Part shown: positions 12,751 to 16,177 of the stretch, one piece after another | How the letters are laid out: each line of letters starts with the position of its first letter | How positions within the stretch are numbered: the first letter of the stretch is position 1 | Origin: Methylocella silvestris | GTDB lineage: Bacteria; Pseudomonadota; Alphaproteobacteria; Rhizobiales; Beijerinckiaceae | DNA length: 64,000 nt | Assembly (NCBI RefSeq): GCF_002891535.1 | Contig: NZ_PDZR01000009.1 | Span: 62,001-126,000 of the forward strand | Direction of reading: 5' to 3' | The notes under the pieces: generated by a model | Told to the model about the DNA's origin: nothing | What the model saw: only the letters and a program-made list of their open reading frames with translations | The model's database searches: none | Translations under genes and position numbers: made by a program

Positions 12751-13719
12751 ATGGGCAAGGTGATCGCGGCGACGGCCTATAGCGCCGGCCGCAAGGTGGC
12801 CGATATTTCCATCGCGGAAAGCGGCGAATGGGCGAACCGGCCCGGCCATTTCGTCTGGATCGGCATTGAAGCCCCGAGCGAGCATGAGCTGCGCGCGCTG
12901 CAAAAACAGTTCGGCCTGCATGAACTGGCGCTGGAAGACGCCTTGAACGCGCATCAAAGACCGAAGGTCGAGGTCTATGGCGACACCAGCTTTCTGGTGC
13001 TGCGCACCGCCTTTCTGATCGACGGCCATATTGCGCTGGGCGAGACCGAGATTTTCGTCGGCAAGGGCTATGTCATCTCGGTGCGGCACGGCGCCTCGGC
13101 GTCCTATACGCGCGTGCGTCAATGCGCCGAGGCGACGCCGAAGCAGCTAAGCCATGGCGAGGATTATGTCGTCTACGCCATCGTCGATTTCATCGTCGAC
13201 AATTATCTGATCGTCGTCGAAAAGCTCGCCGCCGAGGTCGCGGCGCTCGAGGATCATGTGCTGGAGCCGCTGGACGAGACGCGGGTGGCGCGGATCTATG
13301 AGCTGCGGCGCGAACTCCAAAAGCTGCATCTCGTCGCCGCGCCCGCGGTCGAGGTGTGCCGACGGCTGGAGCACGCCGATATACCCGGCATCGACAGCGA
13401 TTTCCGGCCCTATTTCCGCGACATCGGCGACCATGTGAACAGGGCGCTCGAGCAGATCAATTCCCTGCGCGAGATGCTGGGCTTCGCCTTCGAAGCAGGG
13501 CTTCTGCTGGAATCCTCGCGCCAGGGCGCGATCGGCCGCCGCCTCACCGGCTGGGCGGCGATACTCGCCGTGCCCACCGCGATCGCCGGCATCTACGGCA
13601 TGAATTTCAAGAACATGCCGGAGCTCGAATGGCAGTACGGCTATTTCGCCGCGCTCGGCGTGATTTTCTCGACCTGTTTTTATCTGTTCTATCGATTCCG
13701 CAAGGCGGGGTGGATTTGA
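12751..13719 (+). CDS. corA: CorA-family divalent metal transporter
   Basis: A 322-aa CorA-type Mg2+/Co2+ channel. A large cytoplasmic domain (residues 1-255) with a coiled stretch ahead of the membrane part precedes two C-terminal membrane helices. The signature YGMNF has Gly-Met-Asn at 283-285, at the pore mouth, followed by MPELEWQYGY. AGGAG stands about 8 bases before the ATG. Its final 105 bases, coding for the second membrane helix, recur in altered form at 14196-14297. Confidence 0.94.
   Translation: MGKVIAATAYSAGRKVADISIAESGEWANRPGHFVWIGIEAPSEHELRALQKQFGLHELALEDALNAHQRPKVEVYGDTSFLVLRTAFLIDGHIALGETEIFVGKGYVISVRHGASASYTRVRQCAEATPKQLSHGEDYVVYAIVDFIVDNYLIVVEKLAAEVAALEDHVLEPLDETRVARIYELRRELQKLHLVAAPAVEVCRRLEHADIPGIDSDFRPYFRDIGDHVNRALEQINSLREMLGFAFEAGLLLESSRQGAIGRRLTGWAAILAVPTAIAGIYGMNFKNMPELEWQYGYFAALGVIFSTCFYLFYRFRKAGWI
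13615..13719 (+). repeat. Direct repeat copy A: 3' end of corA
   Basis: The last 105 bases of intact corA. The same sequence, with six substitutions and one 3-base deletion, is found in direct orientation at 14196-14297, about 480 bases further on. Confidence 0.95.
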
Positions 13720-13843
13720 CGGCAGGTGGAAATTTTGATGCGAGAGTAGCAATATAGGGCCGCGACCTCAGACAGGGCTTGCGCCATGCCTGCCGGCTTG
13801 CTCCGGCAGCCAGTTAGCCGGCTGTCGCAGACGTCAGATGCGA

Positions 13844-14053
13844 TCACCTGAAGCAGCGCAAGTTTCCATTAGGCATGCGAACGGCGGTATGGCCCGTTCG
13901 TCTCAGGCACCAATCCTGATTTTGACCGCCCCAGACGCACTGGCCCCACCCATTGCGATGGCCGTTTGGACCACAGCCGCCTAAAGCAAACGCCGGCGAC
14001 AAATTAGTGGAAAGGATGATAACGCCGAGCATCGCAGTCTTGAGCGCTTTCAT
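13844..14053 (-). CDS. Small secreted Cys-rich protein (GCG-type)
   Basis: A 69-aa precursor. Signal peptide residues 1-23 (MKALKTAMLGVIILSTNLSP, then AFA) are followed by a mature region of about 45 residues with five Cys and the pattern GCGPNGHRNGWGQC, resembling the short GCG...HR...C secreted proteins common in Rhizobiales. The ATG at 14053 has a clear ribosome site (AAGGGGG). Function unknown. It is oriented against corA and sits exactly between the two copies of the corA 3' end. Confidence 0.8.
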   Translation of the reverse strand: MKALKTAMLGVIILSTNLSPAFALGGCGPNGHRNGWGQCVWGGQNQDWCLRRTGHTAVRMPNGNLRCFR

Positions 14054-14404
14054 AAATACCCCCTTAAAATACGCGACAATTGGCGAGCCGCGCTTCTGAG
14101 ATGATAGTTGAGTGCGCGCTTTGTGCCTAGGCTGACGAAAGCGTGCCGTAGATGATCGATTCAACGATCGCGCGTGCATGTCAGCGACAACGCATATGCC
14201 GGAGCTCGAATGGCAGTACGGCTATTTCGCCGCGCTCGGCGTTTTCTCGACCTGTTTTTATCTTTGTTATCGATGCCGCAAGGCGGGGCGGATCTGAGCC
14301 AAAATTGTCTCAAGCCTGCGCACGTTATGATAGGGGACCACTGCTCATGCGGAGGCAGTCTCGGTAGCAGGCTTGCGTCAGCCTCTACACCACAAAAACC
14401 ACCT
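14054..14404. other. Intergenic stretch with corA remnant
   Basis: Between the small secreted gene and the end of cysI. The first 140 bases must hold the promoter of the leftward small gene; 14196-14297 is the partial corA copy. A 9-bp inverted pair CAAGCCTGC / GCAGGCTTG flanks the segment after it. Nothing else is recognised. Confidence 0.6.
14196..14297 (+). pseudogene. Partial corA duplicate (direct repeat copy B)
   Basis: This stretch matches the last 105 bases of corA with six substitutions and an in-frame 3-base deletion. It still reads without stops as MPELEWQYGYFAALGV, then a Phe-rich helix and a stop at the equivalent position. Changes include Phe to Cys twice and the penultimate Trp to Arg. 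The 33-codon frame has no good ribosome site, so it is probably a remnant of duplication, not a gene. Confidence 0.85.
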
Positions 14405-16177
14405 CTAAATATCCGTCGCCGAAAAGCGCAACGGCAGCTCAACATCATTGAATTCCCGGCCCGCGCGGACTTCCTTCACATAGCCGGCGCGGATGGTGTA
14501 GTCGCCGAAATGCTCGCCGGGCGCGCGATCGCGCGCGTAGTTTCCGGCGATCTCGTCGACGGCGCCCAAAATCGCGTCCTCGCCTACATTTTCGAGATAC
14601 ATCTTGTTGAGACGCTGGCCATGAAAGCCGCCGCCGAAATAGAGATTGTATTTGCCCGGCGCGCGGCCCGTCAGCGCGATCTCCGCCACATAGGGCCTCG
14701 CGCAGCCATTCGGGCAGCCGGTCATGCGGATCGTGATCGGCTCTTTCTCGAGACCCTTCTCCGCCAAGATGGTCTCAATCTTTGTGACCAGCGTCGGCAG
14801 GTAGCGTTCGCTTTCGGCCATGGCGAGGCCGCAGGTCGGCAGCGCGACGCAGGCCATCGAGTTGAGCCGGAGCAGGCTCTGGTCGTTGCGCTGATCGAGG
14901 CCGAACTGCTTCAGCAGCGCGGCGATCTTCGGCTTTTGCTTGGCCGGAATATCCGCGATGACGACATTCTGGTTCGCCGTCATCCGGAACGAACCCTGAT
15001 GCACGGCGGCGATCGCCCGCAGCCCGTCGAGCAGAGCCAGCCCCTCCCGATTGACGATGCGGCCGTTCTCGACAAACAGCGTGTAATGATAGCGGCCGTC
15101 CTCGCCTTTGGCCCAGCCATAGGAATCGCCGTTTGAGACGAATTCGAACGGTTTTGCCGGCTCCAGCGCAAAACCGAGGCGGCGCTCGATCTCGCCCTTG
15201 ATGAAGTCGAGCCCATGCGTGTCGATGGTATATTTGAAGCGGGCATGCGCGCGGGTCTTGCGGTCGCCGAAATCGCGCTGCGTTCCCACAACAGCGTCGG
15301 TCGCGGCCAGAATCTGCTCCTTGGGGATGAAGCCGATCACATCGCCAAGGCGCGGATAGGTTTCCGGCGCCTGATCGGTGCGGCCCATGCCGCCGCCAAT
15401 TGTAATGTTGTAGCCCGTCAGGCGGCCATCCTCGGTGATCGCGATGAAGCCGAGATCCTGCGTGTAGACGTCAATGTCATTATAGGGGGGGATGACAAGG
15501 CCGATCTTGAATTTGCGCGGCAGATATTGCTTGCCGAGAAACGGCTCCTCGGGCTCGGAACTCGCAACGCGCTCCTCGCCATACCAGATCTCATGATAGG
15601 CGCGCATATTCGGCATCGCATGGTCGCTGACGCGCCGCGCATCGTCGAAAACCTCGGCGTGAAGGCTGGAGAGGTTCGGATTGACCGAAGCCATGACGCC
15701 GCGCACGACGTCTCCGCAGGCGGCGATAGTGTCGATCAACACCTCGTGCAGCCCCTGAATGGTCGCCTTCAGATCGTTCTTCAAAACCCAATGAAACTGG
15801 AACGTCTGCCGCGTCGTCACGCGCAGCGAGGAATTGCCATAAGCGCGCGCCAATTCGTCGAGCTTCAGCCATTGCGCGGCAGTGGCGACCCCGCCCGGCA
15901 GGCGCAGGCGGATCAGGAAGGAATAGGCCGGCTCCAGCTTCTGGCGGCGGCGCTCATCGCGCAGGTCCCGGTCGTCCTGCACATAGACGCCGTGGAACTT
16001 CATCAGCTTGGCGTTGTCCTCGCCGGACACGGCGCCGGTGATGGCGTCGAGCAGCCCCTCATTGATCGTGCCGCGCAGCTGGTCGCTGCGGACCTTCATC
16101 GCCTCATCGGGACCGAGATTTTCGAGCGGCTGCGAGAGGTCGCGGCTGCGGTCTGGGCCGGCGAGAGTGTTGGTCAT
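14405..16177 (-). CDS. cysI: Sulfite reductase hemoprotein (beta) subunit
   Basis: Reduces sulfite to sulfide with six electrons for cysteine synthesis (590 aa). The siroheme-[4Fe-4S] cysteines are Cys443 and Cys449 (CVALPTC) and Cys488 and Cys492 (CPNGC). The paired ferredoxin-like and siroheme domains are represented by SSLRVTTRQTFQFHWV and FRMTANQNVVIADI. The start at ATG 16177 is chosen over an upstream extension; MTNTLAGPDRS is a plausible N-terminus. The gene follows cysJ by 10 bases, supporting an NADPH-dependent enzyme and not a ferredoxin type. Confidence 0.94.
   Translation of the reverse strand: MTNTLAGPDRSRDLSQPLENLGPDEAMKVRSDQLRGTINEGLLDAITGAVSGEDNAKLMKFHGVYVQDDRDLRDERRRQKLEPAYSFLIRLRLPGGVATAAQWLKLDELARAYGNSSLRVTTRQTFQFHWVLKNDLKATIQGLHEVLIDTIAACGDVVRGVMASVNPNLSSLHAEVFDDARRVSDHAMPNMRAYHEIWYGEERVASSEPEEPFLGKQYLPRKFKIGLVIPPYNDIDVYTQDLGFIAITEDGRLTGYNITIGGGMGRTDQAPETYPRLGDVIGFIPKEQILAATDAVVGTQRDFGDRKTRAHARFKYTIDTHGLDFIKGEIERRLGFALEPAKPFEFVSNGDSYGWAKGEDGRYHYTLFVENGRIVNREGLALLDGLRAIAAVHQGSFRMTANQNVVIADIPAKQKPKIAALLKQFGLDQRNDQSLLRLNSMACVALPTCGLAMAESERYLPTLVTKIETILAEKGLEKEPITIRMTGCPNGCARPYVAEIALTGRAPGKYNLYFGGGFHGQRLNKMYLENVGEDAILGAVDEIAGNYARDRAPGEHFGDYTIRAGYVKEVRAGREFNDVELPLRFSATDI

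Follow-up and report, generated by a model that had tools for sequence, protein, structure and literature searches.

The question raised by this locus is how the 3' end of corA came to lie twice in the same orientation, on either side of a small gene read from the opposite strand, in the window (the whole stretch of 64,000 nucleotides from Methylocella silvestris that was analysed). The features of the locus are listed in Table 1. As stated in the original prediction, the last 105 bases of corA recur downstream with six substitutions and one 3-nt deletion; this was confirmed by alignment and by a BLAST comparison of the window with itself (E = 1.8e-35), in which the pair, offset by 581 nt, was the sole short-range direct repeat of such quality in 64 kb. 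Copy 2 is identical to copy 1 over about 47 nt, followed by about 55 nt which hold the six substitutions and the 3-nt gap; three of the substitutions are nonsynonymous (F to C twice, W to R), and one Ile codon is deleted. An assembly artefact was ruled out as the source of the repeat, the same layout being found in the single-contig chromosome of the sister species (G009).

Table 1. Positions of the features at the corA locus, numbered from the first letter of the window
Feature	Position	Strand	Evidence
corA, intact CorA/ZntB-type divalent cation transporter, 322 aa	12751..13719	+	Pfam PF01544 (5.9e-62)
Copy 1 of the repeat (3' end of corA)	13615..13719	+	Alignment with copy 2
5'-terminal remnant (about 50 bp, with the transposase start codon) of an IS630-family insertion sequence	13770..13815	-	BLAST and nhmmer
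Gene for a small, predicted secreted Cys-rich protein, GCG_CRPN family, 69 aa	13844..14053	-	NCBIfam NF047412 match; orthologue in G009
Weak promoter-like match upstream of the GCG gene, 9/12 positions (0.7 expected by chance)	14101..14129	-	Consensus match only
Copy 2, truncated and very probably decaying copy of the corA 3' end	14196..14297	+	Alignment; longer, frameshifted homologue in G009 at about L031:3682-3858

The corA gene scored 197 bits against TIGR00383, slightly below the cut-off of 200.75. Between the window species and G009 it showed a dN of 0.007 and a dS of 0.385 (dN/dS about 0.02), and judged by these rates the intact corA is under strong purifying selection. About 100 nt of the gene (13575-13673) are identical between the two species; gene-wide, about one fifth of the third positions differ. 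Outside the window genome and G009, the nearest corA proteins were about 60% identical.

The single short GCG-type gene reported on the opposite strand between the copies is real: its product scored 26.8 bits against NF047412, above the curated cut-off of 24, and the orthologue in G009 is 99% identical at the amino acid level. The N-terminus of the translation has a hydrophobic start, MKALKTAMLGVIILSTNLSPAFA; secretion is predicted only. The GCG_CRPN family is present in 104 of the 199 genomes of the same bacterial family, and the homologues in G001 and G003 lie in other gene neighbourhoods. The only match on a plasmid was that of Methylocystis iwaonis (68% amino acid identity), a GCG_CRPN-like gene on NZ_CP143315.1 (L250:4001-4216) which is not listed in the PLSDB gene table. 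The viral contigs queried with the GCG protein yielded no relative, the literature searched offered nothing on GCG_CRPN, and RNA folds of the spacers were no better than those of shuffled sequences. Between the window and G009 the GCG gene (3.3%) and its upstream spacer (7.8%), together 13844-14195, are less diverged than the neighbouring DNA, with 17% in the spacer on the other side of the gene, and the dS of the GCG gene is 0.14 vs 0.26-0.40 for cysE, cysI, corA and the gene of the AEC transporter. As a sign of recent transfer, the low divergence of the GCG stretch (3.3% vs 8-17% around it) is suggestive only.

Regarding the age and state of copy 2, G009 shows the same gene order (cysE, AEC transporter, corA, GCG gene, second corA end and cysI). 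The second copy there corresponds to about nt 758-969 of corA (the last ~200-210 nt) and carries a 36-nt internal gap and a 1-nt frameshifting deletion. In the window all sequence 5' of corA nt 865 is absent from copy 2, the deletion joining the spacer to ATGCCGGAG. The spacers preceding the second copies are homologous in the two species, and one base (the third position of a TTC codon) is common only to the two second copies. On this shared private base and homologous spacer, the rearrangement is read as having happened once, before the separation of the two species, and the alignments show copy 2 to have once comprised at least about 200 nt, ending at the corA stop codon. The deletions in the second copies differ by lineage (5' truncation and 3-nt loss in the window, the 36-nt and 1-nt deletions in G009), and these copies carry changes of frame and of amino acids, whereas corA and the GCG gene are intact in both species. 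Because the second copy of G009 is longer but broken, copy 2 is very likely a relic in decay, left by an event that happened once, rather than a site that is being maintained. Across all four copies (two each in the window and G009) the repeat is nearly invariant in its first 47 nt, and the last 46 nt hold nearly all differences. This invariance, the identity at the end of corA and the low divergence of the GCG region could reflect chance, local constraint or later exchange, in a stretch too short to decide among them; the repeat itself is short, which makes dating from it weak.

Beyond the second copies the two genomes part. In G009, 14 nt separate copy 2 from vapC of a vapBC pair (PIN, PSK_trans_fac), beyond which lies cysI, and the DNA past copy 2 is unrelated between the window and G009 beyond about 20 nt. 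This vapBC-type toxin-antitoxin pair (L031:3873-4534), directly after the corA relic, is absent from the window. At 14405-14443 the cysI gene of the window lacks the stop used in G009, G014, G002 and G008 and continues for 12 codons (VELPLRFSATDI); cysI ends with FND in these four relatives. The altered end suggests that the deletion which removed vapBC in the window probably reached into cysI.

Among 15 genomes of the genus, the intact corA was found only in the window genome and G009. In G014 and G002 the AEC transporter is followed after about 125 bp by cysI, with neither corA nor the GCG gene, and in G008 cysE is directly followed by cysI; the block of corA, GCG gene and second corA end is therefore specific to the sister pair or was lost by the others. 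No empty site with a single corA was seen among the relatives compared, the congeners lacking corA at this place altogether, and no relative with a full second corA there was found. None of the other corA loci read had corA beside the AEC transporter or cysI.

The statement that no integrase or transposase is present holds for genes at the locus, but the degraded start of an IS630-family element lies in the spacer that separates copy 1 from the GCG gene. It matches nt 64-113 of an element with eight near-identical copies in G001 at 84% identity (E = 4.9e-9 against the window; nhmmer 7.7e-7) and is 80% identical to an element in another contig (C40) of the window genome (G000). The intact IS630-family element carries PF13358 and HTH domains, and the part retained spans the hairpin preceding the transposase start as well as the first codons; no further parts of the element were detected at the locus. 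Since G009 carries the stub too, it predates the species split. By its similarity the stub shows the past presence of a transposable element at the locus; it does not show that the element caused the duplication.

The proposed search for other genes with a duplicated 3' end returned none besides this locus in the ~0.8 Mb sampled (about 396 kb of the window genome and 400 kb of G009). No flanking gene-end repeats were found within about 1.5 kb on either side at 30 other GCG_CRPN loci, nor in G001 and G003, and a habitual association of GCG genes with such repeats was rejected on these grounds. The GCG motif stretch is itself part of the repeats seen at four GCG loci (L159, L160, L171 and L181), and the repeat at L172 (29 nt) lies away from the motif. 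A habitual duplication of the corA end was likewise rejected: among 82 corA loci, only that of G009 had the corA end repeated in direct orientation in the 5 kb downstream. Inverted matches occurred at eight of the 82, several of them in Bosea, and in the five checked (L047, L051, L056, L058 and L064, from Bosea and relatives) the match is another CorA paralogue, only distantly related and encoded on the opposite strand, about 2 kb or less downstream of corA. A recurrent cassette or gene-capture system was rejected, with no recombinase gene, no other gene-end pair in the ~0.8 Mb and none at the 30 GCG loci. The original prediction named two origins, insertion of a cassette or tandem duplication followed by loss; either could have produced the arrangement, but a recurrent cassette mechanism found no support. 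The locus is an ordinary degraded single rearrangement and not a cassette system.

As to which origin is the better one, the boundary of the homology bears on both. In both genomes the copies resemble each other only as far as the corA stop codon TGA, and the sequences beyond align no better than shuffles. Such a boundary results directly from an insert that brought a corA 3' end with it, or from integration at the gene end by a recombinase. The sequence downstream of copy 1 is not repeated after copy 2, which disfavours a tandem duplication of corA together with downstream DNA, because the similarity would then continue past the stop; had corA alone been duplicated in tandem, in a unit ending immediately beyond the stop, no such downstream repeat would be required and the boundary would be the same. 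The point at which the homology ends slightly favours a single insertion event with duplication, as against a tandem duplication and subsequent loss.

An insertion is given about an even chance of being the origin of the arrangement, and is preferred to tandem duplication for its economy rather than on direct proof. A piece with the IS630 stub and the GCG gene would have entered just after corA in a single event. The inserted piece would have carried, or duplicated, the corA 3' end, either through one crossover with DNA that contained part of corA or by joining at the gene end. The corA gene would have stayed whole, and the displaced end would have been left beside the original downstream DNA (vapBC in G009, lost in the window). 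In single-crossover insertion-duplication (Campbell-type integration) an intact gene, the insert and a 5'-truncated gene end follow one another in direct orientation. The layout here is the same; the differences are that no vector, circle or donor was identified and that the copies are diverged and shrunk. Against the insertion, neither a recombinase gene nor an att-like core nor a donor was found, and none of the relatives compared keeps a site with a single corA.

The strongest competitor, held to be a real possibility though short of an even chance, is that the whole of corA was duplicated in tandem, the IS630 element and the GCG gene entered between the copies, and most of the second corA was lost. 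The longer, frameshifted second copy of G009 is what a shrinking pseudogene would leave, and the IS630 stub does lie between the copies; this course, however, needs three events. Only the 3' part survives here, corA sequence upstream of about nt 758 being wholly absent from the second copy of either genome, and the homology stops at the stop codon, unlike what is known of tandem duplication with pseudogene decay. A second corA in direct orientation was found neither at this place nor within 5 kb downstream at the 82 corA loci.

Some prophages and islands integrate at gene ends, as e14 and phage 21 do at the icd gene of E. coli, or at tRNA genes. That the locus is the remnant of an element which integrated at the corA 3' end by a site-specific recombinase, rebuilding the gene end, with the rest since deleted, is improbable, although the expected succession of intact gene, insert and displaced 3' end in direct orientation is present and the homology ending at the stop codon fits. 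The doubled 3' end flanking an insert, with the reading frame kept, is shared with the icd prophages, but neither genome has an integrase at the locus, the body of an element is missing, and only one 69-aa gene and the IS630 stub lie between the copies. None of the related genomes tested shows a recurrence at corA, the other corA loci having no second corA end within 5 kb downstream (longer islands would fall outside that range); matches to corA in phage records are weak (75-82% over 45-98 nt), and the viral contigs hold no relative of the GCG protein. Slightly less probable again is the narrower version in which a small integrative element targeting the corA 3' end brought the GCG gene and lost all but this cargo and the displaced end.

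It is very improbable, finally, that selection maintains copy 2 as a small functional gene or a regulatory sequence: the predicted 33-codon frame is open in the window (39 aa counted from an upstream ATG) and the start of the repeat is nearly invariant, but in G009 the frame has shifted and its C-terminal end differs, and the two second copies carry different deletions, so that the frame is not a conserved gene and a functional mini-gene was rejected.

The locus carries a warning that short open frames found downstream of a gene may be remnants of the gene's own end. Recombination between the two direct repeats is conceivable in principle and would remove the GCG gene and leave a single corA end. 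Beyond the genus the significance is small; the locus documents how the AEC transporter and cysI came to have a lineage-specific corA and a GCG gene between them.
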